This document shows, piece by piece, positions 1,695 to 64,000 of a DNA stretch of 64,000 nt (positions within the stretch are counted from its first letter, which is position 1; the number at the start of each line of letters is the position of its first letter). Below the pieces are notes generated by a model. The model searched no databases. It had not been told where the DNA came from and worked only from the letters and a program-made list of their open reading frames with translations. Both the position numbers and the translations under genes were made by a program. Location of the stretch: positions 1,169,525-1,233,524 of the forward strand of contig NC_037593.1 of NCBI RefSeq assembly GCF_003073045.1, written 5' to 3'. Source of the DNA: Pomacea canaliculata (lineage: Eukaryota > Mollusca > Gastropoda > Architaenioglossa > Ampullariidae).

Positions 1695-1991
1695 AGACCT
1701 GAGTAAACAATATTTTTCTGTTTTTGTTTTCCTTTGATTGTGGTGCCCGGTGCTTTTTAAGCCCGTGTCTCCGATAGGTTAGGACAGAGGGGTTGGGGTG
1801 CATTAGTTCAGACGGCAATAATATCGTGTACGACAGACAGTACAGTCACGTGACATAAAGCACGCGCCGCTTTCTCGCAGACAATGACAATGGAATCCAT
1901 AAAGCCGCCCTGTTGAACTAAAAATAGCTCCACCCGACCCAGTGCCAGACCGTTGTTTTTTGAATGTTGCAGGCGCCAAGCCTCGCTGACC

Positions 1992-4900
1992 ATGACGACA
2001 GCGACGTCGTCCCTCCACTACCTGCTGCCGGCCTGCCTGTGTCTCTTGGTGCATGCTACTGCGCATGCGTGCACCTTCCCGGACTTCCTGCAGCTTGGCG
2101 ACGACGGCGAGCCGTGGTACTCGCACGTGCGCTATGACGGCTCGCGACAGTACGCCTACTATGTACGTCACAACGCGCTGGAGATCCGTCACATGACGTC
2201 ATCAGACCCCGCCCTTCACTGGGCATGCGCAGCCGACTTCCGCGGCACGTTTTTGCTGAAGCGGACGGACGAGGACACGGAAGACGAGTACAGCGCATGC
2301 GTGAGGTTCGTGCGCCGCGGCCAGGGCGTGGTGCAGATGCTGTGGACGCCGGAAGCCAGAAATGAAGAGTGGGAGGCGTGCGACGACAAGGACCTGGTGC
2401 CAGACCCATGGCTTCTCGTCTCCTTCCAGCGCGTGATGCGAGACTACGCGCCAAGCCCCTTCAGCGGCGGCTACAGCATGCGCATCACCGACTCCGACTC
2501 CGGCGAAAACGCCTGCAACTACATCCACCGGCCCATGAAGCTGGAGAGCGACTGTTTGGGGGGAGAGGGCATCCTCTTCGATTTCATCGCGCAAAACTGC
2601 CTCCCCACCGCTGACATGGCGGTCAAGCAGCGCACCCTGACGGTGGCCACCTGGTCGCAAGGGGGAGACGACTTCGTGGTCCTGCGCCGCCCGGCCGATG
2701 TCGTGCTGTACTGCCTGCGGCTGCCCTCCGTCAGGGAGGATCACATGAACGTCTTCCTGTTCCGCGACCTGGCCTGCCTGCCCCACGCCGAGTCCCTGCT
2801 GCTGGGCCCCGCCACCCGGCCCCGCGACGTCAAGTACCTGGTGCTGCACCTGCAGAAATACCTGGCCACCAGTCTGTGCGACGACGAGTACCCGCAGTGC
2901 TCAGCTGTGGCCTGTGACGGGGTCCTCAGACACGAGTGTCAGAAGTCCTGCAAGGTGTGTGACCCCAAGAAGCCCCCAGTCACCTGCTCCTTCCCCCGGC
3001 GACTGCGAGGCTCGTGGCTTCAGGTGAGACAGCGTGTCTGTAGTGTGCGTGTGAGTGTGTGAGATTACTGGGCATGCATACTGTGTGTGTACGCGTCTGT
3101 GAGTGTGTGAGATGACTGGGCATGCATACTCTGTGTGTGTGAGTGTGTGAGATGACTGGGTATGCATACTGTGTGTGTACGCGTCTGTGAGTGTGTGAGA
3201 TGACTGGGCATGCATACTCTGTGTGTGTGAGTGTGTGAGTGTGTGAGATGACTGAGCATGCATACTGTGTGTGTGTGTGTGTGTGAGGGTGTGAGATGAC
3301 TGAGCATGCATACTGTGTGTGTGTGTGTGTGAGTGTGTGAGATGACTGAGCATGCATACTGTGTGTGTGTGAGTGTGTGAGATGACTGAGCATGCATGTG
3401 TGTGTACGCGTCTGTCAGTGTGTCAGACGACAGATCATGCATACTGTGTGTATATGTGCGTGTGTGTGTGTGTGTTGGTGGTCTGCATGTGTGTGCGTGC
3501 TTACGTGACTGTGTGTTGGGCTGGCTGTGTGTATGTGCGCTTGTTTACCTCTGTGTCTTGATGTGTGGCTGGTTCACTGGATGTCTGTCTTCTCTGTGTG
3601 TTGTTACATGTAGAAAATGTGTCTGTGTGCTTAGCTGCGCGCTTGCCTTTCACTTTCGTGTGTGTGCGTGTGTGTTTGTACATTTCTGTGTGTATCTGTA
3701 TTTTGTGTGTGTGAATGTCTCTGTGTTTGTGTGCATGTATGTCTGTGCGTCTCTGTCTTATCTCAGTGCGAGTGTGTGTGTGTGTCGAGCTGTGCTTTTC
3801 CTCCTGACTTCTCTCCCCTGCTCAAGATAATCGCATGCGATGGTCTCCCCGCAGTGTTCGTCCTCCATTTCTTGTGCGCCTGATCGGCTTCTGATCCATT
3901 TCCTTCCCATTTCGTTTCCATTTGGCTCAGACTGATGTGGACGGATACCATCACGTCAACATCTCGGAGTCGGACTTGTCCATCGGGGCGGTGGGCAGCT
4001 TCCGGTGCGTGCTCTTCCCCGACAGCCCCGCCCGCAAAAACCGCCTCTACACCACTCTGTCCACCTTCTCCAACGGCTGCCGCCCCCGCTACACCTGCCT
4101 CAAGTTCAAAAGGTTAGGTCCGTCTGCCCTCCGCTACACTCTCAGCCGCAGCGTCGTGTGGTCCGACCTGGACTCCAGCTTCGGTGACGTCATCTGCTCT
4201 GATTCGCAGTTCGTGCCTGACCCGGAACCCATCGGTGACCTGTACAGGTGATCATTCCTCCTTCTCACGATGTCTGGCTTTGGTGGTTGGTGTGTGTGTG
4301 TGAGGTCAACCTCGAGGTTGACACGATGGCTGACTTATTGCTCTTGTCTTTATGTCTTCTTGTCTTCTTGTCTTCTTCTCTTCTTGTCGTCTTGTCTTTA
4401 TGCTAGAGACTGTCTGTGTGTGTGTTTGTTCCCGTGACGTGTCAACACGTGTCCCACCCGTGAGTCACACCCCTTGTGTCCTTGTGTCCGTGCAGGTCTC
4501 AGGAGGACGGGGGCAAGCCCATCATCAGCCTCCAGCCCGCCCCCGAGCGCGTGCCGTGCAACCTGCACTCCTCCTTCAGCATCGCCACCACCTTCCCCAA
4601 CGGCTCCCTGTGCCACGGCAGCCTCTTCGAGCACTGTGAGGACAGCAGCCGCCTGAGAATCGAGTTCCACGCCGACTGCGGTCAGCTGGTCAGCGCGGAC
4701 ACGCATCCCTTCACGTCGCCGCACGGGGGCGCCACCCGCCCAGTCCACGCCGACTTCTCGTGTCTCGCGCGGTACGAGGGTCACTCGTGGGAGAACCTGC
4801 TGCTGCTGCAGAACGACGCCGACGCACGCGATGCTCGCTGCCTGGTGACGTCACAGCAGGACGTGTCGGAGGCCGTGGTGGTGGTGGCGGGGCAGTGCGA

Positions 4901-5333
4901 CAAGAACAGCTGGAACTATGCACGTGCGGGGCTGCGGGCCCCCCTCCTAGCACTGCGCCTGCGCCCGGACGAGTTTCCCTGCAAGTACCTGCCGCCTCCT
5001 CCTTCCCCCGCCACCCCACCCTCCCACCCGCTGCCAGAGGGCGCTTCGGGTGTGATGACGTCACAGACTCGCCGACCCTCGGAGGCCGGCGGCTTCACCA
5101 CCGCCTTCGTCTTCAGTCTCACGCTGTCGCCGTCGCAGGGGGATCCCCAGCAGCGCCTCTCTGCCCCCTACCAGGAGTCGCACGACGGGGAGAAAACCGC
5201 GTTAGCTCACAGACCCGAGTTATCTGCCGAGGGAAATGAAGCCAGAGCTGCGAGTGCCACGTCCTCCACGCTGCGGGCTGCGGCTGCCTGCCTTCTGGTG
5301 TCGGTGGCCGTGTGTTATTGGATAGCCAGGTGA
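1992..5333 (+). CDS. Secreted, probably GPI-anchored Cys-rich protein (DUF7042-7045-like)
   Basis: Three coding exons, 1992-3023, 3931-4247 and 4496-5333, join in phase (0, then 2) to a protein of about 728 aa. Donors are CAG|GTGAG and CAG|GTGAT; both acceptors end in CAG. The chosen Met (ACCATGA context) begins a signal peptide with the hydrophobic run LLPACLCLLVHATAHA. The mature part is rich in Cys and opens with CTFPDFL. A second, similar opening, CSFPRRLRGSWLQ, spans the exon 1/2 junction near residue 336, so the ectodomain appears internally duplicated. The C terminus ends in a short hydrophobic stretch (AAAACLLVSVAVCYWIAR) with almost no tail, as expected for a GPI signal or a single membrane anchor. 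From memory, the layout matches uncharacterised invertebrate proteins given DUF7042-DUF7045 domains; function is unknown. Codon use is strongly GC-rich at third positions, unlike the genes further right. A possible poly(A) signal, AATAAA, lies at 6413. Confidence 0.85.
3040..3445. repeat. Intronic minisatellite with (TG)n and GCATGCAT cores
   Basis: Intron 1 of the Cys-rich gene carries about nine copies of a unit of roughly 40 to 60 bases. Each has GAGATGACTG followed by GCATGCAT or TATGCAT, separated by variable (TG)n and TACGCGTCTG. Copies differ mainly in the length of the TG runs. The rest of the intron to about 3780 is TG-rich simple sequence with no other feature. Confidence 0.85.
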
Positions 5334-16800: not shown

Positions 16801-16915
16801 CATAAAGTAGAGCTGCAATATGATAATGCATTAAAAACCTTTACCTCTAAAAAGGTTATTTTGTAGGATGAGGAACGTCAAAATGTCATCATCTGTTTTC
16901 ATTTTTGTTTTGCAG
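13831..16915. other. Intergenic, transition to AT-rich sequence
   Basis: An open frame at 13840-14232 (+) is the longest here but shows no family resemblance. From about 14.3 kb onward the DNA is plainly AT-rich. The 46-bp repeat at 14602-14765 is described separately. An open segment at 16478-16690 (+) is unassigned and might be a 5'UTR exon of the next gene. The acceptor at 16913-16915 (TTTTGCAG) shows that the next gene has at least one upstream non-coding or start-proximal exon that I could not place. Confidence 0.45.
14602..14765. repeat. 46-bp tandem repeat, about three and a half copies
   Basis: The unit contains ACCGTGTGTTCACCACGGTA, CCACCAACTG and TCAGTCATGGTACAGC. The copies are almost identical. 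ACCGTG and CACGGT within the unit are inverted, so each copy can form a small hairpin. Confidence 0.9.
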
Positions 16916-16955
16916 ACTTCTCAAGAAAATAACTGCAAAAGCTTCTTTGGCAGCA

Positions 16956-19900
16956 ATGTTTTGTCCAAATGGAACAGAATGGACACAAGTATGGGTGGAG
17001 AATGGTATCAACCGCTGCTTTTTTGACTCGGTGTCTGCCATTGTGATATTTCTTGTTGTCGTATGTTTTGGTTCATCGCGATGTGCTGTTTTCTGGCACC
17101 GGGGCATGTCACTGAGTCCCGAGGCCCGTAAAGAGAAGGCAGCACTTTATAACATGCAGACAGCTTTGACAGTGATACTGATTGTGGAGGTTATTATAGA
17201 GATGATCCTCCACGATCTCTACTTCGAGGCAGGAGGTCTGAGTGGTTACCGAGTACTGGCAACACTGATACTCATCATAGCTTATGTGTTTTCACTGTGC
17301 TTACTGAGACTGGAGAAGAACAACATCCTTGAACAACTCCCTGACAGATGTAAAAGCGTTCCTCTCTTCCTCTTCTGGTCTGTGGGTCTAATCCAGGGAA
17401 GTCTGGCTTTGGCTTCTTGGTGGAGTCCACAGTGGTGGTGGCAATTGAGCAAGTGAGTCATTTTTGTTTTTTCATAATCATCAGCAACATTATTACAGGT
17501 ATAACTTAATAATAGTAAGAGTAACTTTTAGATTGTAGTATAATTTCTCTGAATAAAATAGCAGATACAAAAAAGAAATTTCTATGTGTGAATAAACGTG
17601 CATTTGTACACTGTAAAATAATGTTTCTAATATTATGTGAAATTCTGAACAGAACCTTACACTTGATAACACCTTTACATTTTGTTTGAAAGTTAATATT
17701 GGGATATATTTCTCTACAATATTTTAATTACATTCCACCATTTATTATGGCCAGTTGTATCAGATAATTACATAGGCTTGTTGTTAGGCAGAAAGGCCAT
17801 ATGACAAGGAATGTGTTATGATGTTGATCTTATATTTTCAATTTTGATTAAAACAGCTGAAAATTTGACATGACTGAGTACCTTTTGTTTCTACTTCAGA
17901 ACGAGCCAGTGGGTGCAATTTGGACTCTGGCTTCTACGTTTCATAGTTTTTTTGATGCTATTAGTCCTTGGCATCATAAGTACAGCAAGATACCAAAGAC
18001 GCAGATCAACAGCTTTTGGGCAACAGTTTAACATCCTCACAAACGTCATGGAAAATGGTGAAGCAAACCATCAGGAAAACCAGACTGTAGTGAAGGTTAG
18101 CTGAGTCTGCTTGGTTGTTAAAAGCAGAGAAGTTTATCAAATATATTGATTGCTGGAAGCAGAAAATGGAGAAATTAGTTGAATAAGATTTACGGTTTAA
18201 AGATTTTAATAGATGATTAACAAAAAATCTATCAGAAAATGTATTCATCATTAGAGAACAACTGTACAAAATTTTTAGAACTCATACCTCACTCCATTCT
18301 AACAGTGTTTACAAAAACTGCTATGAACCTATTTTTAAGTTTACTTCATCTGGTGTCATTTGATTTGTTACTGTTTTCATTTTTTTTAAGCATTATTGTG
18401 CAGTGTACTTTATTTCCAGCCTCAGACTATATTTCATCAAAAATTGGTGTGACATTGATTTGAATAAAAAAATGATGTGTTTTCTATAATCTATAGAATG
18501 GCACCAGAAGAACGGAGAACACAGGAGACAGAGGGCGAGGCGTTCTGAGAGACGGCAAGATAGATAACACAGACACCAAATCAACATGGGCCAACATTGG
18601 ACACAAGATCAAACTCATGATACCCTTAGTTTGGCCAAAGGGAAGCCTATTTCTGCAGACAATTGTTGTTATTTGTCTTGGCCTGCTGGTCTGTGGCCGA
18701 ATAGTCAACCTCTATGTTCCCCTTTACAACAGGGACATAGGTTTGTTGCTTTTTTTCAGACAGTAGGGATTTTAGCAAAAGATTGAAAGAACTTTTAACA
18801 ATTTTGTATTTATTTAATCCATTGTGGAATAATGCAATTCTTGTTTTTTCACATTAACTAATCATTGTCGCTATACTCATCTGCACCTCGTAATAATCAC
18901 GCAAGCAGATGGACATTTGCATATTCTTTCACAAAGACAACTACATCTGCCTCTGCCGATTCTGTCTACTCTAATACATACAGCAAACAAAAATGACAAC
19001 AACCAATAACCTTTATATACAATTTCCTTTGAATTATCTTACCAAGATAATGCTTCTTGGGGTTGGCGTCCTTGTCACAACATGATGCATAGGTCAACCC
19101 TCGAGTCAGTCCTTTCTGTGGGCTGGGTGAATGCAAGTCTCTTGTTCAATCACACCTTCATCTCTGCCTCAATACTAACTGTATTTATATAGCAAGAGAA
19201 ATAATTTACAATCCAAAGAGTCCATTAGAAATATTCAGCAAACACAAAATCAATAATATTCACATTTCTGAGAATGTACAGTTTTCTCTTCCCACAAGCG
19301 ATTAGCACAAAAGTGCAAAACTTTTCCAATGGTCAAAATAAATAGATAGTGCAAGCTATCCTAGAATATTCCATAACTTCTTGCTTTGTCACACAGTCTC
19401 TCTATGCACATGTCCGCAGCCAAAATACTCCCTGTTCTTCAGACAGACTTTATCTCAAACATCTATAAAGCTTTAGTCTTTTCTGTCAAACTATTGACTG
19501 AGTGTATTGAGGGCACTGTAATATCAAAAGGGAACATTTTTTTTTAATCAGACACACTCTTAACGCGAACATGAAATTAGTCTAGACACAGTGATCCACT
19601 CATAATTACTGTCCCTGTGCCTGCTATGGGGGTGTTTACATTTAGTCTTTATATTCAGACTCTTGTTTTCTTATAGATGAATACATGTGACAGAAATCTC
19701 TTATTCCATGATATTTGCCTGTTGTTTGTTCCAGTTAACAGTCTCACAGGATCTGGAACCCTAACATATCGTTGGGACATCATCCTCATCTACTGTTCAC
19801 TTCTCTTTCTCCGAGGAGCTGGTGGTAATCTTGTACAAAGTTATCACTTATATGTTTATAATACTGAGATTTTCTGAGAACCAATTTGTAACTTTTAAGG

Positions 19901-49860: not shown

Positions 49861-50544
49861 ACAAGAAACTTCCATTAAAGCTTAAAACATAAATCTCAAT
49901 TTACTTAATGAACTTTAAAATCTTATACGAGTAATATAAATGGTATAGTGTTGGTAAATGTAATGAAACTATACAGAAAATTGAAGCAGGTTGTGGATTT
50001 GTATCTGTTCCTGTTTAGTTACTTATGTGAAACTGTATTGTCTATAACCAATCCCCTATATGAATTCTCACAAAACATACGAACAAACAATAACAATTAA
50101 CTCGTAACAGTGAAACCTACAGGTAAGAACTTTTTAATTACAGTGATCAAAAAGATCCAACCACCCCTAACACCCTCATATGAAATTGTGTAGTAAAGTT
50201 TTCAACGATCAGCGTAGCATTATAGCATATGCATTGCAAAAGACATTATTTGTTGATGGATGGAGTTAACGCAAATGGGGTGGTAAATCACTAAAGGACT
50301 TTAGCTCCCATAAACAAGACGAGTTCAACATTTCATAAGCGTACAGTATACCCTGATATCTCTTTATGCAGTCGCTGATCCTCTCATGTTTACAATGTTT
50401 ATCCTCACTCCTCCTGTCTTACGTTTCAACGGAGACTCGCGCAGTCGATACGTTTAAATGACGTACAGGGGGGCATGTTCTTCATAAACGTATTCTTCGT
50501 AATTCTGAAATTAAATATGAAAGACTAGATTCCACAAGTTTTAA

Positions 50545-50920
50545 TTATCCTACACTAGCCCCCAATGTTAGGTTAGCTTCGTGGCGTCGCAGGTCGGTGG
50601 GTCTGTCAGCGCCGAAGACCCAACAAAGACCCGCAGCTGAGCTCATTTTCGCCGAGGGGCACGCGATGAACTCATTTGCATATTCGCGCCGGCAGATTTT
50701 TGTGTCGCTATTGAACACTCCTGTGGTAAGTTTTAGTGGCGCATACAGATAAACTAAAAATGGGAAAACTTTATGATGCTCTTCTTGAGCTTTATTAATA
50801 TTCAACAGCGTTTTCGTCAATGCATTTCTCTCATAAAGAGAGGTAAGATTTAGCAAGGCGACACTTGGTGCGAGTTCATCATTCACGAGGTCGCCATCTT
50901 GAACATGATAATTCATTGTT
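50545..50920. promoter_or_regulatory. Promoter-like CpG-richer stretch
   Basis: Locally GC-richer with several CGs, in an AT-rich setting. It carries ATTTGCAT (octamer) at 50674-50681 and, on the minus strand, AAGATGGCGAC (YY1-type) at 50890-50900. A good donor, CTGTG|GTAAGT near 50724, would suit a 5'UTR exon of the Myb/SANT-like gene on the plus strand. A minus-strand frame of 123 aa runs through it without family resemblance; whether it is real is unknown. Confidence 0.4.
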
Positions 50921-52073
50921 CAGCATCAAAACTAAGAATCAGTGATGAAAAGAAAAAGACAATTTAATGCATTTATGCTAATCAAGAACCATTTTCAATT
51001 ATATTATTTTAAGCATGTTTCTGAATAGATTTTTTCTACCAGTGTTGTCTTCAACATTTGTATATCGATAAATAGTAATATGACAAGCTAATCATTAGTA
51101 CGTAGCTCAGCGGCATAGAGTGAGTTCAGTCTGTTGTTCAGTCAGTGTGTTGAGTGTCTGAGTTCATCTTGTGTGTATGAGGCTATGAGTGTATGTTTTA
51201 ACTCCAGTACACAGCCCTAGTTCTGATTACTCCCCCTTTTAAACAGGTGTTGTTTACAGTTATAGGCGAGCCCATCTAAGAAGCATTGTTGCAGTAATCA
51301 TTTAACTAGTATTGACTGATTTTTTGACTGACTGGCAGTCAAGTGATGCACGAGGCAAAAGATACCGTAAATATGTAGCAGACGTTCATGTAGATGATTT
51401 CCCGTTTTAGATTTTTTTTTAAATCCACTTAGCATCATCAGCTTTATACAGACAGTTTTTAAGTAGCTTTTAATCAGTAGGAATCTTCATCGTTATGACA
51501 GCTACATTTAAAAAATTGTAGCCATCTCTCACTAAAGTTACTTTTTGTTAAGAAAACAAGTAAACATCTGGTGTTTACTATGCTATTTAACAAAACAGAT
51601 AATGTGTAATATGTTCATGACTTAGTCAAGTTTGCAACTCTTGGAAGAATATAAAACACTATGCAGGCTATACAAAAATCACATATCATTTGATGCAGCC
51701 TATATATGACCTGCACTGAAGGACTATGTATCCCAGTTTTAGCTCATCCATTTCAGCTTGATGTAATTATTTTCATGTATCCAACAAAACTTAGATATAC
51801 AACAGACAGTGGTAAATAATAAATCAAGGAATGCACTTTATTTTACAGAGTAAAATAAGTGATCTGTCAGTAACAGTGCAAATTTCTGTTGGATTCAAAT
51901 GATGTGGAAGAATGGCTTATCAAAGTAAAAAGTGCAATGAGAAGATACTGTATGGACTGGTGCTTTTTTAATTTTTTAATTTTTTTTTTAATATTCAGTT
52001 CTGAGTCGGCACACCTTCCAGTATTAGCATCACTCTCACCCTAACGGTGACCTCTTTGTGGTATCCACTTGAC

Positions 52074-53858
52074 ATGATGGCAGCCATTCCCACCGGCAGG
52101 CCAGACATTCCCATGATGCCAATGCCAGTCTATCCAAATCCAGGCTTTATGCATGCCCCAGACAACCCTCACATTAACAAACTGCCTGTGCCTGCAGCCC
52201 GAGGTCTTCACAACACCCACATTTCCACCACAACTGCCCCACCATCTGAACCAGTGCAGCTGATTTCAAGCAATCAACAAAACAACAAGACACCAGGGGC
52301 TTCCTCTGACGGTACCAATGAAACAGGTGAACACAATGCTTTGTGCTGTAAGCCACTTTCATTTAATGCATCATGGGAGATGTGTTTTAAGTAGCCTGAT
52401 CTGTCATACACACGTGACAGATGCTTTACACCTTAAATCCTAAATGAGTTATTTTACATATAAATGAGTATGTTTAAAATGTACATACTTGTCAACACAT
52501 TCTTTATTGTAAAAGAAAATGACAGCTTTTTTGTATCCCAGCAGCAGTGGATCCTTCACGGCTGAAATATTGGAATCACGAGGAAATTGTGGAGCTGATT
52601 CAACTGTATAAAAAGTACTTACCTGAGTTTCACAAGTTTGGCCAGAGGAAAATGAATGTTTGGCAGCGTGTGACAGAAGAACTTGTTGCGAAAGGCTATG
52701 GAAACTTCTCGTGGGCTGAATGCAGTGCAAAGTTCCGTAGTCTGCGGGACAGGTAATTGTTTTGTGCTTGACGATGCTTCTGCAGTTTTGATGTACAGCA
52801 CATTGCAGTAAAGATATTAAAGCTCTACCCTACAGCAATAAAAAAGTTTTTGCTTTTGATTTTTCCTGTTGTAATAAATTGTGGGTAATTTTCTTTATTC
52901 CTTAACTTAAACCAATGAATCAATGGCAAAGGAGACACCTTGTAGCATGTGTACATTTTAAGGATGGAATTTTAGTTGATGTTATTGAAGACTTGGTGTT
53001 AATAAACATTATACAAATTATCTCATTTTTATCAAAAAATGAATTGGATGTTGTAGAAAACAAAATATGTCAATTTAGTGTATTTGTTGCAGTTACAGAA
53101 GGACTACTACCGGTGGGCGGGCTCATACCTGGCAGTACTATCCACTCATGAAAGAAATTATGAAAATGGAAAAAATGATTCTTGAACAAGAGCCAGCCAA
53201 CAAACCACCAAAAGGAACCATTACTTGTGAAAATGAGATAAGGGCCCAAAACATCGCATTCACCAACAACCAACAGCCATGTACATCACGGAATGATGAT
53301 AACGGAGAAGCTGATTTTGGGGACTCTGACCTTGAGGATTTGAACAGAAAGAGAACTTTGTCAGATTCTAATGGACCTGCAGGCAAGAAAGGAAAAGAGT
53401 CTGACCAGGAATCAGAGATTGTCATTGGCAAAAATTTCAATGGTGAAACTGTTAAGGCTAAGACAAAACGACCACTGGGTCCACTGGGACCTTTGAGTGG
53501 TCTGCAGGCATTAGGGAAGAGCTTGTGCTTGCCGCAAACTCAGCTGGTTGTGGCTGATGATGGTCAGGTAGTGCAGACAACCTCAGCTCCAACTGGTCTG
53601 TTTGTGGATGAGAATGGTCGGCTTGGCAGCAGTCAGGTCACACCTGCTCGACAAACAGTTTCTATGCCTCAGTGGTTCAAGATGTACGAAAAAAGAACAC
53701 GTGCTGAAAATAATCGTCGTTTGGAAGAGCTGAAAGAAATGCATCAGGAGAGTTTGGAGCTGCAGCGACAAAGTCTGGAAATACAGAGGCAGAAAAATGA
53801 ACTGCTGAAAAATCTGACAGAATCATTGGCAGAATTCAAATCACTTCTTCAGAGATGA
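52074..53858 (+). CDS. Myb/SANT-like (trihelix) DNA-binding protein
   Basis: Three coding exons, 52074-52326, 52542-52752 and 53093-53858, join in phase to 409 aa. Residues 1-84 are Pro/Met-rich and disordered (PTGRPDIPMMPMPVYPNPG). Residues 94-177 form a Myb/SANT-like domain of the MSANTD/trihelix kind: YWNHEEIVELIQLYKKYLPE, then KMNVWQRVTEELVAKGY, WAECSAKFRSLRDSYRR, closing with HTWQYYPLM. A long acidic, basic and low-complexity middle follows (KRTLSDSNGPAGKKGKES). The last 64 residues, 346-409, are a coiled coil (RRLEELKEMHQESLELQRQS), probably for dimerisation. Expected to act in the nucleus as a sequence-specific DNA-binding protein; the target is unknown. Such domains often derive from Harbinger-type accessory proteins, but this is a normal spliced gene. 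Exon 2 is preceded by three consecutive CAG acceptors. The first of two Mets is used here; an intron ends at 51998 in the 5'UTR. Confidence 0.88.
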
Positions 53859-55744
53859 TACAGTAATAGTCTTCTTGTAGTCTGCATAGTGATGTGTATG
53901 AGTGTTAGCTAGCCTGTAGCGTACATATATTGACAGCAACAGAAAATGCTTGGTTGTGAGATCGCATAAAGAAAAATGGCTTTTGTCTTGTGAGGAAATA
54001 TATGACTCGCCACCACAAAATGAGTCAAAGTCGCACAAAGCAGTTTCAGGGTAGAGGCCCAGAAATGTGATTAGGTTCAACTTTGTGCCATCAGACTTGC
54101 GCACTTCAGACCTTTATAACTCATTCAATTTTAGCATCAAAAGAAAGGTCAAAACCTGTACATTTTAAAAATATACAATTTGCAAAATCTCAAATTTCCA
54201 ACTTAAACTCATAAGGATACGTGGTTCTTTGGAAGAGCAGGGGCTGCACCAAACATTACAGCATTGTCTATTTCATAGCCATATAAAAGGATAAAACGTC
54301 GTCCAATGAAAGGGTTTGACTAAAGAATTCATGCTGGTATTTTTAGGCACCCAACGAGCATATATGCACTGAGAAAATGGTGATGTTGAGAATGGGAGTT
54401 GTTGGATATACCATAAAAGTCTAAAGACTCTGTTATAACAGTAGTGCCAAAAGAGGAAATATTCTGAGCAAGAGAGTACTTGTGAGAAATGGTAGAGAAG
54501 ATAAGGAAGTGAATGGTCAGAATAACAGTTAAATTATTTCTTCTCAGGAAGCAAAGATATGATCTATAAATTTTGTTCTGAAGCTGCTGTACTTGTTGAA
54601 TCATTAACAGCTCATAGACCTATGAGCAAAAATTGCTTTAGTACAAATCAGGGGAGTTGCAGACTGATTCTTGTTTTTTATATCTTCATTTGTGGTTGAT
54701 ATTTTAGCAATAATTACAGAACAAAAATAAAATGCTTCCTTGCACAAAACTTATCACCCTCTTCCTCTCATTTTCACTCATAGCTCCTCGTCTTCCTTTT
54801 GCAAAATGGCGATACTCGATCTCAGTCCTTGTTACTTGGATCCTCAGTTACGCTTTTTTTTCGTCAGTGCTGTTCTTTATCCTTCCATCATTCATGTGTT
54901 GTTTGCTGGTTCTTCCAACCCTCATATGTTGCCCATAACTTGTTCTTAAGCACTAAGAGCATGCTCCTTATGAGTTTTGCATTTATTATTTATTATAATT
55001 GTTAAAAATTTTTGCCATTTGAAACAAAACTATTCTTGTAGGTAGAGCGTACAAATAAAGAAGCGTACAAAAATACAAATTGGGGAGGAGATATCATAAA
55101 GCTCCCTTAATAAAGATATTTAGCAGCATTTTAACTTGTATCCCTCTACTCCTAATCCCTTTGTAATGCATCAAGGTTGTGCTCGTTAAGATATTTCTTC
55201 CATGAAAAAGTTCACAACTGGTTTTTCGCAAATGTTGTAGCTTAGTTCTGCGGGCTTCAGGTTCTTAATGCATCATTTTATATTGTGATTGACATAATCA
55301 TTTGTACATTGTTGCTTCCTTGCCATGCTGGTTTTTGTGCTTCAAAGATTCCATTACAAGAAACTGAATTTATGTCTTTAATAAAATAAAACTAAAAGCT
55401 AAATGGTTGTTTTAAAATAAATCCCCAAAAGATTGCTACATGATTGACAGTAGTACATGGCTGTACCTTTCACAATCAGTACTGTTGCTTGTCTTAACAG
55501 TTTTAATAATAGTTGGAAGGTGCCATTTAAAACTGTAAGGTACCTGCATCAGTCCTTATAGGCCACCTGTTGTGGAAGAGGGACCAGACTATGACATCCT
55601 TATAGTGCTTTTGCTTGTAGTTGTTTAGAAACAAGAGATGGCAGCCATTAAATGGCCTGGTTGAAATGGGACCAGACCTGTATCATGCTTATAAATAGAT
55701 CACTGCATTCATGTGTGTGTGTAAAAGGATCAGAAACAAAAAAT
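53859..55744. other. 3' flank of the Myb/SANT-like gene
   Basis: Possible poly(A) signals are AATAAA at 54726 and near 55053 and 55381. Open frames at 54732-55005 (+) are low-complexity and without family resemblance. No RNA gene or further exon is seen. The region ends at the target duplication of the LINE. Confidence 0.5.
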
Positions 55745-57103
55745 CATCATCATCATCATCATCATTCCTTGTTACTCCTCAAGGAGCATAGGGCCGCAAC
55801 AACACCTCGCCAGCGAACCCGGTTTTGGGCAGCCCCCCTCAGTTGGGCCCATGTGGTTCCGGCAGCCTTTGCCTCGCTCTCTACTGATCTTCTCCAAGTC
55901 TGTTTTGGCCTTCCAACTTTTCTCTTCCCCTGCGGGTTCCAGTCAAGTGCCTGCCTGGCAATGGTGTCAGCCGGTTTGCGCAGGGTGTGTCCTATCCAGC
56001 CCCACTTGCGCTTTTTGATGTCTTGACTAGTGGCATTCTGGTTAGTTCTTTCCCACAGCTGCTGTTTGAGATCCTCTCAGGCCATCTTATTCTCAAAATA
56101 TGGCGAAGGCATCGGTTGGTGAAGGTCTGGAGCTTGTTGTTGATGGTGTTTGTCACTCTCCAAGTTTCAGAGCCATACAGTAGGACTGTCTTCACATTGG
56201 TGTTAAATATGCGGGTCTTGTTGCGAAGGGATAATGCTCGGGAGTTCCAGATGGGGCGCAGACTGTTGAAAGCATGCCTGGCCTTGTTTATGCGGCTTCT
56301 GATGTCTTCGTCCGCTCCACCATCCTTGCTGACGATGCTCCCCAGATATGTGAAAGCGGTCTGTTTCTAGGATGTTCTCGCCTTGAAGTTGAATTGGAAG
56401 TTCTTGCTTGTTGTTGAATTTCATCACTTCGGTCTTCTTTTTGTTGATCTTTAAGCCGGTCTTTTCTGCTTCCTCTGCTAGTTTGCTCAGTTTGGTTTGT
56501 GCATGCTGCTGCCGATGAGATAGGAGACTAATGTCATCTGCAAAGTCCAGGTCTTCTAGCTGTTTAGTGAAGGTCCACTGGATACCGGTGTTGTTGTCTT
56601 GGGTCGTCTTACGCATAACCCAGTCTATGACCATCAGGAAGATTGTCGGTGATAGTATGCAACCCTGTCTTACACCAGTCTTCATTACAAAAGGTTTAGT
56701 GAGTCTGCCATTATGGATAACTTGGCAGGATGAGTCTTCATACAATCCCTGGACGATGTTTATGAATTTAGGTGGAATACCATAGTGGTTCATCAGTCTC
56801 CAGATGACATCCCTGTCTACACTGTCGAAGGCCTTCTCAAAGTCCACAAAGGTTATATAAAGGGAGGATTGCCATTCGATGGACTGTTCTATGATGATAC
56901 GAAGGGTTGCAATATGGTCAGTGCATGATTTGTCTTGGCGAAACCCTGCTTGTTCTGGTCTCATTCTCATGTCTAGTGCCTTCTTCAGTCTCTCTAGTAT
57001 TATCCTTGTCAGGACTTTGCTGGGGATGGACAGCAGCATGATTCCCCGCCAGTTGTTGCACTGGGACAGGTCTCCTTTCTTTGGAAGTTTGACCAGGTGG
57101 CCT
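55745..57103 (-). mobile_element. RTE-like LINE, 5'-truncated, 10-bp TSD
   Basis: The minus strand encodes the reverse transcriptase of a non-LTR retrotransposon: NNWRGIMLLSIPSKVLTRII, EQAGFRQDKSCTDHIATLRI, FVDFEKAFDSVDRDVIW, GVRQGCILSPTIF, the active site FADDISLLSH, and a C-terminal region reading GWIGHTLRKPADT...GRPKQTWRRS. The endonuclease is missing, so the copy is 5'-truncated at about 57103. The reading frame breaks near 56355 and again near 56080. The 3' end carries a (TGATGA)n tail. The flanks are identical 10-mers, AACAAAAAAT (55735-55744 and 57104-57113), which are the target duplication. RTE-like is my favoured clade from sequence style and the microsatellite tail; CR1/Jockey is not excluded. 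Confidence 0.92.
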
Positions 57104-57324
57104 AACAAAAAATGATAGTAGAAATTATGTACTCTTTTTTTCATTTGCTGGTTGGGACAGGAGGAATGAGTTCAGTATCATAAAGAATTTTGAAGGAACT
57201 TTCTAGGCATAAAAGGGTGTTGGTGTTTAGTGAGAGGTAACAGAAAGCAGTTATAAGTTTAAAATATTTGTTTGCAGTCTGACTTTAAGAGGTCACAGCA
57301 ATAAATTTGTTACTCTCTCTTGGT

Positions 57325-57400
57325 GGGTGGTCCACTGGCACAACAGTTTGTCATCAATAGAGTGAGGATTAGCTGTCTTGGGTTCAGATCTCATTTTAGG
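57325..57400 (+). repeat. Possible decayed tRNA-derived SINE
   Basis: TGGTCCACTGGCACAACAG resembles an A-box and GGTTCAGATCTC, about 55 bases later, a B-box. No target duplication was found and the cloverleaf is not intact. Confidence 0.35.
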
Positions 57401-58800
57401 CACACTGTTCTTTCTCTGAATGTGACATATCTAATTCACATATTTTGCTTCTGAAGCTGGCTTTAGATAGCATTTCCACTGTTAAACAGTTGGATCTGAA
57501 GGGTACCTTCAGCAATATTCAGCATTTTAGAGTGACTGCTGATACAAAATGTAATGCAATTCTTAATGAGTAATTTTTTTCAACCATATTTTAAATCAGG
57601 AATGAATTTTTTTCTCCTTTCTTTGATAGGCAGAAAATCATGACCATTTGAATTATACATAACTGCTGGATAAAATTATCAATTAACACTGAACAAATGT
57701 GATATGGAATTCTCTCATAAACTTCCACAGCTTTTGATGTGTGTTTTCATTATATGCAGGCTATGCACCAGCATGCCATACTAAAACAATAAAAGAAGTG
57801 TTTTGCAAAAAGCAGCCATAAAACCTCAAGTTTTTACCCTCCTGATCTTGATTACCTAAATGTTTGTAGTTCATTATCATACCCAGGTATGAAAAAGAGA
57901 AACATTCCCTTAACTTAGTTCTTTGTTTAGATACATACTCATGTTTCTTAGTGAAATTACAAATCAAAATGTTGGCAGTAAAATAGATGTCACAGTTATT
58001 TCACAGTCATGACTGTACGCAATGTAGAATATTTCATTCATAAAGCATTTTTAATGTTTGATTTTACATGTGTATGTAGATGCATGCAGATGTATTCATT
58101 GAAAACCATAAAAATGCCGTAACTTAAGCAATTAGACTAGTGCATGCAAGTAACAAGAGAGCTGCTCAGTGAAGGTTTCTTTTACAGAGCTGTTCGATGC
58201 CACAATGTATGTGTTGCAGTTGTTGTCAGGCACTTATCTGCAGACATCACAAACATGTAACAAAAAAATTTTTGAAGCATTAACAGGAAAAAATCTAAAT
58301 CAACTTTTAAACAATTAATGCCTTATTTAAAACTTGTGCTATAAAGTTGCTTCAGTAACTTGGCTTTACTAAACTTTAAATCTGGGAATCTTTGTTTGGG
58401 CTGCAGTGAAGGAAATTGTTAAAATACAGATTTATGTCATGTCTTGTGGGTATATTTATGTAGTTCTATCAGTATAGCACATTACATTTGGAATGTTTAC
58501 TGCATGATGCTGATCACTACTGCTTCAAAATTCAAAGATAAAAGGGTGTGTATGGAGCACTGAAGGCATGTTCGTGTGCATCTAAAGGCATATAGTGGAA
58601 GACTGTTGTCAGCATGTACTGTTGCTCTAGCAAAATAAAGCTTTGTACAAGAATAAAATAAAACTGGCACCAGAAACATTTAAAACTATTTAGACTCTTT
58701 CAATGACATTTTACCACTCTCTCATTGGTCATTTAGTAATTCATTAGTTAGACATTTTTTACTAGTGCTTTACCATTCCATCATATTCTTTTTCCATACT

Positions 58801-58960
58801 GTCATTCAGTCACAATTTTTTTTCACCAACAAATACTAAGAATTATGTCACATTTTTGTTCATACACAAATGCTGCTATTCTGTCAAATTTTTGTTTATA
58901 CACAAGTACTGCCTTTCTGTCACTTCAGCTTGTTTACTGTTTTGTAGCAGTCTCTTTCAT
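58801..58960. repeat. 36-bp degenerate tandem repeat
   Basis: GTCACATTTTTGTTCATACA-type units restart at 58847, 58883 and 58919, a spacing of 36. A looser copy begins at 58801. Confidence 0.6.
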
Positions 58961-60106
58961 GCTATGCCATATTATCATTCTCACGTATTACATTTCTGTC
59001 ACAATTTACATAAATTGCTATTCTGCCACCTATTGTGTGCTATTTTATACAGTCTGATTTGTTTTTGATTGTTCTAAGTTCTAAATTGTCATTGAGTTTT
59101 TTTTTAACTTCCTCAATTAGATACAAAATGCCACGCAGAAAGAAAATATACTTTAAAAGAAGGCATTTTAAAATAAATAAACTGCCCTCTGAAAGTTTTG
59201 TCAGGTTTAAGTCTTCACACAATTATCATGATGAATGCTATTAGGCATGATGAAGTCTTAGCTGTTGACTGTGTAAAACACCAGTCATCACCCCAATATC
59301 CTTAGCCTTCCACACTGAACAGTCAGGAGTCTCAATAGCCTAACAACCTTATTTCACTGTAGCTACTAGCTTCAATAGCTATAGTGTCAATAACAAGGTC
59401 ACTAGTCTCAATAGCCTAATTTCCACTCTTTTTGGATTTATCACTCGCTAATCTGAAAAGCCAAACTACCACATACCCTGCCAGATGTGCACTGCTGCCA
59501 CCACCCCACCTCTCTAATGAACATCTTCCACCTCACAGGTGAACACATCCATGCCAGCATAAGTAGAATGTAAAACTTTGCACGACATTAATCCTCAAGT
59601 CACAAAACCAAAAGTACATATGTCAAAAGTACATCATGTCTTGTTGCTCATGCCTTCCCACTATCTTCGCCTCAGCTCACATGTACCATTGTCCAGCTTC
59701 ACTGTTGTAAGAGATCACTGGAAGTGCTGCTTATTACGGATGAAGAAGAAAACACTAATTTTATCTTTATAACTGCAGGAGGGCAACAAGCCAGTGATGC
59801 TGACAGATGTAGCACTTTAGTACATGAAGATGTCTCATCTGTTGTGCCACTATCAGGAGTGTTTTCTCACCAATCATGTTTTTATTTTATGCTTGGCTGC
59901 ACATATTTCTACAGCAGCTTACTAACCTCTACTGTAGACAATAATGATGGTCTATTCAGTAACTGATGGCAACATGCTTGTCACGTACAAAATTTGGTAC
60001 TGTCTGCAGCTGCCTGGATTTATTTACCTATAACCTTCAGCAGCCTTACCCAACAACCAATAGACAAGTAAAGACAGGTGACACTTTTCACATACTTGCC
60101 ATAGTA

Positions 60107-63100
60107 CTATAGAACCAGTTTCTTTTTTTTAGCAGATCCTGCACTGGCACCACTTCCTGGAATGCCATCAAAACCACTGCCACTAAGCACTGGAAATCGT
60201 TCTTCTCCAATCACTTCTTCTCGTTCTAGGATAAAGTTCATAAGAGCACAGGCAGCAAGGACAACAGAAGGAATTTTGTCTGGCAGCATTTCCAATAATT
60301 CCAAGCGCTGAAATGTGTTTTTAAGCAAAGTGGTGGTGCGATCTAAGGCCACCATGCTAGCAGCATGCAGGCGGTTGAAGTAAAACATTTCATCAGACAT
60401 GGGTGCACTCTGAGAAAATGGAATCCAAACATGGTTTCTGACTGGATAGTCCCGGCTTGCCAAAACCTGTTTATGGATAAGGGAAGAAAATACACAGAAT
60501 GCACCAACATGATTTGTCTTATCTGCAATACTGAAATATTTTCTTGAACTGCTTCAACTGCAATTTCCACTATAAATTGTTTTGACACTCTCACTAGCTG
60601 TCTATGACATAATGCATACTGTTCAGCTAATTACCTTTAATACATGACATCACATTATTCATGTTTCTTTCCAAGCTGGATTTAGTCTGAGAATATGTGA
60701 TAGTAGGCAGGGCAAATAAAGAGCAGAAATAAGTTTCTAACACATATGACTGACACAAGGGAATTGGGTGCTGGTGGAAGATGGCTCAGATAAAAATAAA
60801 AATCTGGTGCAAGAAAAGCAATTCTGTGCAAGATTTTACATTTATAAGAAAGCAATAATACTAAAACTGATAAGTACAAACCTGAGCATAATCAGGAAGT
60901 TTGTCTAGTAGTCCTGGAAGGTCACTCTCATGAAAAGCAGCATGTTCAGCAGTTGTACCTGGCCATCCAGCACTAACATGTAAAAAACGACGTGTACCAT
61001 CACAGACTGCTTGCAGAAGAATAGATGGTCGTCCATTAGGGTCCCTGTAGGGTGCACCCCTTTTAGCTGAGCGCAATCGCAAAGGCAAGCGACAAGCTCC
61101 AAGACACCCCATGACCCCTTGACAAAGACATGCAAAAATTAGCAAAAGTGTAAAGTTCTGTAAGCCTCTATCTAAAAATAGTGTACTTCTAGTAAATTTT
61201 ATTTTGTTTTGACAATAGCAAACACTTCATAAACTCCTTGCCTTCTTTTTATAGGTAGAGGTCATCCCTTAACCTTTTCAGGTCATTGGGGGGTGTGGTG
61301 TTAGAGACCTCACTTTTCTCGGGGCAAGTTTTAAGGGATTAAGTAGGGCGGTTTGGATGCCAGCACTCTAACCACTCGGCTATTCACTTCCCCTACTTTT
61401 TATAGCCATTCATCCATTAATGCACATGCCTGCGATCATAAAGATGAAAAGTTCTGAGTCAAAAAAAGTAATAAAAGGTTTCTTCAATGCTATGCTTTCA
61501 AGCCAATCTTTATCTTGGCACAGATGCTGTATATATCATGCTGAATAAAATGCATCTGAAAGTAAAAAGAGAACAGTAAGCAGAAATAGCATTGTAATAC
61601 TTTATGACTATTTTTCTATAATTTAACAATGCATGAAAATCTCGTGAGAAGAGGTGGGGTGGAGGAATCCATAAAGTTTTAAAACAACACAAACAAATTC
61701 TCTGCTAAGTTTGTTCAATACCTTGAAAATTATAATTTGTTTCAAATGATGCAAGGCATCGTTTAACTTCCTCCTCTGTGGATGGCCAATGAATTGTCTG
61801 AGGCATTAAGTGCTCCACAATGGCTGTACTGAACAGGTGGACTGCACCATGAAAGGTGCCTATGCTCCAGTCAAAGCGCTTCACCAACTGCTTCATGCTT
61901 TCTCGTCCTGCCAGCCACCATAACACTCCCATCAGCTTGGAGTAGGGGCTAACTGTCCTCCCTGCTACTTTGAAACCCACCACCTCACAGAGCTCCTGGA
62001 TCAAAAGAATCTTTGATAGCTTAATAAATCTTTAAAATCCATTACATTAAGACAGTTAAATTAACAAATGAAATGTAACTGTTTTCATGGAATAAATGTT
62101 TGTTATCTTAAACAGTCAGCTCAAAAATCACTAAAGAGAAAAAAAATGCTTAGTTGACCCCACCCACCCCCCAAAAAAAAACAACAACAAAAAAGCACAG
62201 CTAAGGCCTATAGTGTGGAAGTCACCTAAAGATACTTGAATCTCACTTGTGGTATGACATAAAGAATGAGAATACTTTCATTTATTGCACTTTGTACAAT
62301 ACCTTTTCCCTCACTTTCTGAGATAAATATACAAGTACATGTAAAATTTTTAATAACAGGTACAGATAAATGAAAATCAGAGAAATTCATAAAACAACAG
62401 CTTGCATTTTGTTGCTATTATTTTAAAGTAGTGGGATCCCTGATAATTAAAATATTTATATTCCTAAGAAAAGGATAAATATTCCCATGTCAAAAAAAAA
62501 TAAACACCATAGTAGATTGGGTTCAAGAAAGATTTTTAATCTGCACTGCAATTTCAAGCTGTTTTCATCAGTCATTCATTGGGAAGTTTTAAAAAAAAAT
62601 AAAAGTCAGACTGCAGAACCAGTATAAACTTATCTTTTTCCTTTCTATGCTGGTTCTATAGTCTGTCTGTCCATGATAGGAATAGTCTGAACAGTATTGT
62701 CCATATCTGTTCCTGAGTAATACAGGTATCAAGCAGAGAATTGGCTTCCTCTTGTTATCAGTAAATTGTCAGAAAATGCTTCCAGCAATTTGTCTATACA
62801 AGAACATTTTTTAAAATATGATAAGCATAGTAAAAATGAGCAAACCTGAAATGTACTTCGTTCCATGTGAAATGAGCTCTTAAAAGATGGGTCCCTGAAG
62901 TATGGTATTTTCTCGAGCTCCTTTTGCATAATCTGTGCATCTGTAAGGCCTGCATCATCAGAATCATGGTCTTCTTGTGCTAAATCTCCGAGCTCAAAAT
63001 AACCTTCTTCAACCTCTCCTGTTCTCTTCTTGAGTTGCTTTAGCTTGCGTGGATTTTTTGATCGCCTCCACACTTTAGACTTTGGCTTTGGCTGCGCTCT

Positions 63101-63681
63101 TGGTTTTTTCTGTCTCTCCGCTGAACTTTTTTTCTTACGTGATTTTTGAACTGGTTGTCTGTAAGATACCAAACATCATCATTCAATGAAAACGGTTACA
63201 TTTCATTTGTAAAGACATGCTAATCTACCAGCATAAAAAATAGATAATACCCATTTACAGATGAAAAACAGAACAATCTTTATGTCATTAGTACGTCAAT
63301 TGTTGACATTATATTCTGCTTTTAATGCACATAATCTAAAAGACAATAAATTCCAAAAGGCTTGAATGCTCTGACTACTCCTTTTCAGAAGATTGTAAAC
63401 ATCAAGTACTTAAATACCAACCCATTTTCGTCAAGCTCAGCGACTTTGCGTTTTCTGGCAGATTTGCCACCGCCTTTACTTACTGCTCGGCGATTCACAA
63501 GAGCTCCGTATTTAATCGCTATGTGTCCGACGACCGACGACCGTATCCACGATTTCTTTGCAAGGTACTCAGCCTCTTTGTAGACTTGATTCCTATGGGT
63601 CTTATTGTCGGGATCATCTGCAAACTCTCCAAGGATAATGCCTATGGTTTCTGCTAGTAGAGAACATGCCTCTCGATTCAT
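60107..63681 (-). CDS. Domesticated PIF/Harbinger transposase-derived (HARBI1-like) protein
   Basis: Five coding exons on the minus strand: 63422-63681, 62846-63158, 61722-61995, 60882-61117, 60107-60466. They join in phase to 480 aa. Residues 1-150 are a host-like N-terminal extension with a strongly basic stretch (SARKRKVAEL, KKPRAQPKPKSKVWRRSKNP), probably a nuclear signal, followed by an acidic patch. From about residue 170 the protein follows the Harbinger/DDE_Tnp_4 layout: IPYFRDPSFKSSFHMERSTF, then a helix-turn-helix-like VSPYSKLMGVLWWLAGRES, HWPS, GCLGACRLPL (family GCIDGTHIPI), GWPGTTAEHAAF (family WPGS.HD), DYPVRNHVWIPF, ALDRTTTLLKNTF (family VIEKTF) and VVLAACALMNFIL. The catalytic D, D, E positions read Gly289, Glu340 and Asp403, so nuclease activity is doubtful. 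Intact spliced structure and no terminal repeats indicate a host gene. The exon 1 donor (GTTGGT) is weak but is the only one in phase. Confidence 0.88.
60467..63421. other. Introns of the Harbinger-derived gene
   Basis: Four introns: 60467-60881 (nothing seen), 61118-61721 (carries the tRNA-SINE), 61996-62845 (AT-rich, nothing seen) and 63159-63421 (nothing seen). Confidence 0.7.
61255..61395 (-). mobile_element. tRNA-derived SINE with perfect 10-bp TSD
   Basis: On the minus strand the element reads AAGTGAATAGCCGAGTGG, then TTAGAGTGCTGGCATCCAAA; the tRNA A-box (GCCGAGTGGTTAGAGTGCTGG) occupies 61360-61380 on the plus strand as its complement. The tail reads GACCTGAAAAGGTTAAGGG. Identical flanks CTTTTTATAG (61245-61254 and 61396-61405) are the target duplication, which points to a fairly recent insertion. 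It lies in an intron of the Harbinger-derived gene. Confidence 0.9.
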
Positions 63682-63844
63682 TTGAAGAAAATTTTTAAAA
63701 ATATATGCTTAAAAGTTTAGTACGCTGTATTAAAAAAAAAATTGTACTCGACGCCTTCAATTATTCTCACTCGTCTTTAAACTTTATATGGTTCTATTCT
63801 TACACGGAGGATTTAAGATTCGTTGGCACGCAGGAACGGCCAAA
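63682..63844. promoter_or_regulatory. Bidirectional promoter, Harbinger-derived gene / TMEM97
   Basis: The two start codons diverge across only 163 bases, so transcription starts of both genes must lie here or inside the first exons. I see no TATA box and no strong named site. Confidence 0.65.
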
Positions 63845-63952
63845 ATGCGTTTCTTGGACGTCGTTTTCTTTCTGTATTTTCTGACGCATATTCCAATCGC
63901 CTTGTTGTTTGATTCTCAGGGGGTATTTCCTGAACAGTATTACCCCAAACTT
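63845..63952 (+). CDS. TMEM97: TMEM97 (sigma-2 receptor), first exon, partial
   Basis: An ATG at 63845 opens 36 codons ending at a good donor, CTT|GTACGT. The peptide (MRFLDVVFFLYFLTHIPIAL, then LFDSQGVFPEQYYPKL) aligns with the start of human TMEM97 (LLGLYFLSHIPITLFMDLQA, then VLPRELYP), including the buried Asp of the first helix (Asp23 here). TMEM97 is a four-helix EXPERA-domain protein of the endoplasmic reticulum involved in sterol handling and is the sigma-2 receptor. The rest of the gene lies past the window edge. Confidence 0.88.
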
Positions 63953-64000
63953 GTACGTCTTTTTCTAGTCTATTTAAATTTTGTGCTATTAAGCTTTTAC

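Follow-up and report, generated by a model that had tools for sequence, protein, structure and literature searches.

Both in Harbinger elements and in the domesticated genes descended from them, the nuclease is described as using its N-terminal part to bind the C-terminal part of its Myb partner (PMC7282668), and each of the two proteins is reported to require the other to reach the nucleus (PMC9710019). The present analysis concerns a Harbinger transposase-derived gene of the snail Pomacea canaliculata and the Myb/SANT gene lying near it, both located in a stretch of 64,000 nucleotides (contig NC_037593.1, positions 1,169,525 to 1,233,524 of the forward strand), hereafter referred to as the window. 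Judging from sequence, it is proposed, with a probability of roughly 0.7, that an ancient insertion of a single PIF/Harbinger element had both of its genes co-opted where they stood, the transposase becoming a non-cutting partner of the Myb protein. The common origin of the two genes from one element is considered very probable, and co-option of the pair by the host, for which a host function is inferred, is considered likely.

Linked co-domestications of both PIF genes have been described in insects, namely DPLG7/DPM7, APLG1/APM1, APLG2/APM2 and LPLG2/LPM2 (PMC9710019). Like the snail pair, these are adjoining single-copy transposase-derived and Myb/MADF-derived genes attributed to one insertion, with no flanking terminal repeats recognised (PMC9710019). 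The Arabidopsis proteins ALP1 and ALP2 offer a second parallel, since there too the host has retained a Myb partner together with a Harbinger nuclease whose triad has lost residues and reads DGA instead of DDE; the two interact and associate with Polycomb repressive complex 2 (PRC2) (PMC7282668, PMC4671723). Unlike the snail Myb gene, ALP2 has no nuclease gene such as ALP1 beside it (PMC7282668, PMC4671723), and it has lost the DNA-binding tryptophans (PMC7282668), whereas the snail Myb protein retains Trp at 94, 124 and 167 in a by-eye alignment with the Harbinger Myb genes of its genome. In vertebrates, the nuclease HARBI1 and the Myb protein NAIF1 are both retained and can interact (PMC4671723; the pair is also named in PMC9710019). 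This likeness to the snail pair was drawn by description and not by sequence. HARBI1 and NAIF1 are not known to be linked.

Among gastropods, the Aplysia MADF genes resemble the snail Myb gene in being Myb/SANT genes of presumed PIF origin. They were set aside in a 2023 survey for want of a transposase domain in the same gene (PMC10027918), whereas in the snail a cognate transposase-derived gene lies next door; inspection of the neighbouring gene may offer a route to the origins of molluscan MADF/SANT genes. No report of Harbinger co-domestication in molluscs was found in a search by title and start of abstract, which left most subscription papers outside its reach. If orthologues bear it out, the snail pair would be a molluscan example of two Harbinger genes domesticated together and still linked, as otherwise met here only in insects, and the co-domestication model, in which joint function is the reason for keeping both proteins, would hold in another phylum.

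Within the snail genome itself (440 Mb), comparison is offered by a two-gene Harbinger family represented by the loci C6 (~10003.8-10007.7 kb) and C13 (~6077-6084 kb). This family has homologous transposase and Myb genes in convergent layout and shares intron sites with the window; unlike the window pair, it is present in several copies, its D/D/E is intact in C6 and it carries no basic N-terminal extension. The C6 and C13 Myb genes lie 1.9 and 4.5 kb from a Harbinger transposase gene, and long stretches of DNA are 96-97% identical among C6, C13 and a further locus, C1, which therefore represent one real two-gene transposon family. Each gene of the window pair is intact, is found once and is homologous to its counterpart in this family.

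The transposase-derived gene reads from an ATG at 63681 to a stop codon ending at 60107, with GT-AG borders at all exons (Table 1), in agreement with the preliminary description, made from the letters of the window, of a gene with four introns at this position. Its product matches the DDE_Tnp_4 family of Pfam (6.1e-16; 58.9 bits against a cut-off of 24.8) over residues 301-438 and profile positions 16-158 of 158, and the same description's N-terminal basic extension is borne out: it measures ~165 aa, and residues 67-135, across exons 1 and 2, are 39% K/R. From its composition, this K/R-rich extension is likely a nuclear-localisation region. The first 72 aa match nothing in Pfam at E up to 10, and the search of NCBIfam gave 0 matches. 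Relatives in the Protein Data Bank were sought by sequence at E up to 10 for both the window transposase-derived protein and the C6 protein, and none was credible. Exons 1 and 3, each folded singly, gave predicted local distance difference test (pLDDT) scores of 60 and 62, too low for a fold search; helices are predicted for exon 3 with correspondingly low confidence.

Table 1. Coordinates of the two genes, their parts and the adjoining gaps in the window.
Feature	Position	Strand	Remarks
Transposase-derived gene, 480 aa, five exons	60107..63681	-	Gene model; DDE_Tnp_4 6.1e-16
Exon 1, N-terminal extension, no relative found	63422..63681	-	Helical prediction, low confidence, pLDDT 60
Exon 2, basic stretch resembling a nuclear localisation signal, then start of Harbinger homology near residue 166	62846..63158	-	
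Exon 3, aligned with the helix-turn-helix (HTH) part of Harbinger transposases	61722..61995	-	
Exon 4, first half of DDE domain	60882..61117	-	G289 61098-61100; E340 60945-60947
Exon 5, second half of DDE domain	60107..60466	-	S365 60455-60457; D403 60341-60343
Myb/SANT gene, 408 aa	52074..53858	+	Exons 52074-52326, 52545-52752, 53093-53858
SANT-domain intron of Myb/SANT gene	52753..53092	+	Same codon, phase 2, as C13 Myb gene
PQWF motif and coiled-coil-like block	53628..53858	+	P of PQWF = residue 346; common to Harbinger Myb genes
Gap between the convergent genes	53859..60106	.	Contains a recent 5'-truncated long interspersed nuclear element (LINE)
Gap between ATGs of transposase-derived gene (-) and presumed TMEM97-like gene (+, ATG 63845)	63682..63844		163 bp

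The DDE_Tnp_4 family is abundant in the genome, with at least 150 matches (150 of 389 candidates scored), and the transposase-derived gene is solitary: one copy was found, and none of the 44 candidates scored (of 44) gave a non-self match above 36% identity. Its best genome matches are C12a (77.9 bits) and C6 (72.2 bits), and three relatives were aligned with it, namely C12:1804934 (C12a), C6:10005163 (C6) and C12:12833126 (C12b, joined from pieces). For C12a (L035), which has three exons, no other DNA copy of the coding part was found; its four acids are intact and DGTH reads DATD, and it may itself be co-opted or be the last surviving copy.

Comparison with these relatives bears directly on the introns, all four of which had been regarded as gained. 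Intron 2, which precedes the HTH exon, occurs at an identical site and in phase 0 in the C6, C13, C12a and C12b Harbinger loci (C6 and C13 being copies of one family) and is read as inherited with the transposon. For intron 3, the donor lies 4 nt and the acceptor ~14 nt from the C6 borders, and C12b is without this intron; either its borders have shifted and it is possibly inherited, or it is a different intron. For introns 1 and 4, the relatives read show no counterpart. Intron 2 also contains (62061-62143) two stretches that are inverted copies of parts of the end of intron 1 and of the first 32 nt of exon 2 (63127-63213); they are 81-91% complementary, and the pre-mRNA could fold around exon 2.

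The Myb/SANT gene likewise shares intron sites with the Harbinger family. The donor of its SANT-domain intron is shared by the C6 and C1 Myb genes, whose acceptors were not seen. With ttgcag at 53093 taken as the acceptor of this intron, in preference to ttacag, the SANT profile is recovered in full: the product matches Myb_DNA-bind_4 at 5.6e-13 over positions 3-89 of 89. One copy of the gene was found, nothing else among the best genome candidates scored exceeding 36% identity, and its best SANT matches elsewhere are C1:29075968, C6:10007506 and, more weakly, C13:6077369. When the 1.5-kb flanks of 30 of the 43 Myb sites were searched, a PQWF-like motif was present at four of the 30 loci, namely the window, C6, C1 and C13. 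The alignment score between the C-terminal blocks of the window and C6 Myb proteins was reached by 3 of 2000 shuffles. In the Myb tree, built from 18 of the 30 loci (12 fragments or near-duplicates being omitted, including the Harbinger-linked C11:23317931 and C7:25597497), the window gene joins the C6/C1/C13 Harbinger Myb set with support of 91/80, below the starred level (95 and 80), and a wider set of eight rows is starred at 98/99. The search for the motif was widened at two loci, C3 and C14. At C14 no PQWF-like motif appeared; the C3 Myb gene (L071, G000:C3:2486277), kin of the Harbinger partner family, has a diverged PKWIKKF motif (2 of 2000 shuffles). A DDE-like scrap upstream of the C3 gene lies on the same strand as that gene rather than convergent with it, and it was not counted among the pairs.

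The arrangement of the two window genes is that of the family: they are convergent (transposase-derived on the - strand, Myb on the + strand) and 6.2 kb apart. Among the 43 Myb_DNA-bind_4 sites of the genome (E up to 1; 24 above the cut-off), eight have a DDE_Tnp_4 match within 8 kb, the window included, and all eight pairs are convergent, while the share of the genome lying within 8 kb of such a site is ~0.16%. Part of the 6.2-kb gap is itself recent, as the LINE at ~55749-57105, which carries a reverse-transcriptase frame, is 95-100% identical to most other scored copies (best 99-100%). The shared intron sites, the layout and the homology are the grounds on which the pair is assigned to the same element. 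The preliminary description had pointed to a Myb/SANT gene, of the usual Harbinger partner class, ~6 kb away; the evidence says that this gene is a cognate partner by descent, beyond being a mere member of that class.

The active site departs from that of the relatives at every acid position. The spliced translation contains G289, R292, E340 and D403, as previously read from the letters, and the relatives C12a, C6 and C12b have Asp, Asp (HD), Asp (GDS) and Glu opposite G289, E340, S365 and D403. In the intact relatives C6 and C12a, the first Asp (D1) stands 50 residues from the HD acid and 77 from the second Asp (D2), which in turn stands 38 residues from Glu; the equivalent spacings in the transposase-derived protein are 51, 76 and 38. 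On the basis of this spacing in two intact relatives and of the published position of the second Asp, the triad of the transposase-derived protein is assigned to G289, S365 and D403, with two acids gone outright. By the same comparison, the canonical second Asp sits in the GDS(A/G)Y motif and not in the HD motif, and E340 is assigned to a further conserved acid position, changed from D to E, and not to the triad. The earlier reading of the triad as G289-E340-D403 is thereby ruled out, the HD acid lying 50 and the GDS acid 77 residues from D1 in both intact relatives; its statement that the first acid is lost and that two positions stay acidic holds for G289, E340 and D403, and misses the loss of the second triad acid at S365. 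In the alignment, no acid stands at the first or second triad position of the window protein.

In C6, whose DDE_Tnp_4 match begins at profile position 1, the first Asp falls close to the beginning of the profile; the first 15 profile positions, unmatched by the window protein, are therefore the expected site of this residue. The codons of G289 (GGA) and S365 (AGC) lie within exons 4 and 5, respectively, so that a shifted splice site cannot restore Asp. Counted by eye on the 11 non-window alignment rows, some of which are near-duplicates, D1 is kept in 8 of the 8 covering rows, the HD acid in 11 of 11 and Glu in 9 of 10, the exception being C5. A degenerate Harbinger transposase-like gene, L038 (G000:C5:4393504), keeps the Asp positions and has Ser in place of the catalytic Glu; no match to the window Myb protein was found within 9.9 kb of it, and it is possibly another co-opted gene.

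That the enzyme still cuts by means of altered acids (E340, D367 or D403) would be in keeping with the acidic character retained by E340 and D403 and with D367 lying two residues from the S365 position. With Gly and Ser in place of the first and second Asp, this is nevertheless very improbable; in rice Ping, the single change D295A is reported to lower excision ~150-fold (PMC2836001). The previous suggestion of a Harbinger origin, a lost cutting site and likely co-option is supported.

Several observations weigh against the co-option of both genes from one insertion, some bearing on the common origin and others on the co-option. around C12a, the top-scoring transposase relative, 9.5 kb were read without a Myb match; the eight convergent pairs include copies of one family and are not eight independent events; and two further Myb/DDE neighbours, 8.9 and 12.9 kb apart, are divergent and tandem. 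Regarding transposon ends, no convincing outer repeat was found in the window, and the ends of the C6 family were not resolved: in 50400-64000, where 113 inverted pairs were found, the 25 longest include a single pair outside both genes (51007-51033 / 63688-63714), which is 27 nt long, AT-rich and 74% matched. At E 0.01, exon 3 taken by itself has no Pfam match, and thus none to an HTH family. The want of a Myb match around C12a, together with a SANT-domain identity of just ~33% between the Myb proteins, could be accommodated if only the transposase gene had been co-opted, or were a relic, and the Myb gene were an unrelated MADF/SANT neighbour; transposase-only domestications are also recorded in insects (PMC9710019). 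Such a coincidence is improbable in view of the shared intron position and phase, the PQWF/coiled-coil-like block, the placement in the Myb tree, the convergent layout and the ~0.16% chance of proximity.

With regard to co-option, the transposase tree does not resolve the placement of the window row, whose branch is long at 1.65, compared with 0.46 for C6 and 0.49 for C12a; by path, C6 is nearest to it, followed by C12a and C12b. The transposase-derived protein keeps 34 of the 72 DDE-part columns that are invariant in the three relatives and leaves 0 of the 4 active-site acid positions unchanged, two of the four (E340 and D403) staying acidic, so that the loss at these positions is suggestive, being only mildly above background and not a strong enrichment in itself. 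The long branch and the change at all four positions would also be expected of an old Harbinger copy dying without host function, its frames open by chance or through recent death. This is unlikely, as both genes are full-length, intact and spliced, with no stop or frameshift despite at most 36% identity to any relative found, and as introns 1 and 4 and the 165-aa extension are not seen in the relatives read. In a neutral simulation of a 480-codon frame, 6 of 500 runs remained free of stops when 0.1 substitutions per site were allowed and 0 of 500 when 0.2 were, figures which argue against a dying copy but overstate the case, part of the divergence predating co-option and belonging to the working-transposon phase.

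If the pair was indeed co-opted as a unit, the Myb protein would bind DNA via its SANT domain, and its C-terminal PQWF/coiled-coil-like block would hold the N-terminal part of the ex-transposase. The latter would supply a strong region for nuclear localisation, while its DDE fold, no longer cutting, could serve as a platform for host proteins. The outcome would be a sequence-targeted regulator of chromatin or transcription, comparable to ALP1/ALP2 of plants. The parts corresponding to those that bind each other in Harbinger elements are retained on both sides, as the HTH-aligned exon and the PQWF/coiled-coil-like block; a Myb-targeted, non-cutting complex recruiting chromatin or transcription proteins is therefore expected, with about an even chance. 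Less probably, the pair would restrain Harbinger elements that are still alive, with the Myb protein recognising Harbinger ends and the dead transposase joining or blocking transposition complexes. In this unlikely role it would amount to a self-derived 'poison subunit' defence, preserved beside a housekeeping promoter in a genome where related two-gene elements persist.

The ex-transposase would probably be transcribed from a promoter shared with its head-to-head neighbour. Two joined exons of this neighbour match the EXPERA/EBP domain at 6e-22, the first exon alone matching nothing, and the gene is taken to be TMEM97-like. As the two ATGs, at 63681 and 63845, are 164 bases apart, a shared promoter is likely.

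Elsewhere in the window, frames at 1917-5333 (+) match DUF7043 (2.8e-9), DUF7044 below the cut-off and DUF7042 at the cut-off, and an exon at 16872-17456 (+) matches MTABC_N, the N-terminal region of mitochondrial-type ABC transporters, at 1.1e-37.

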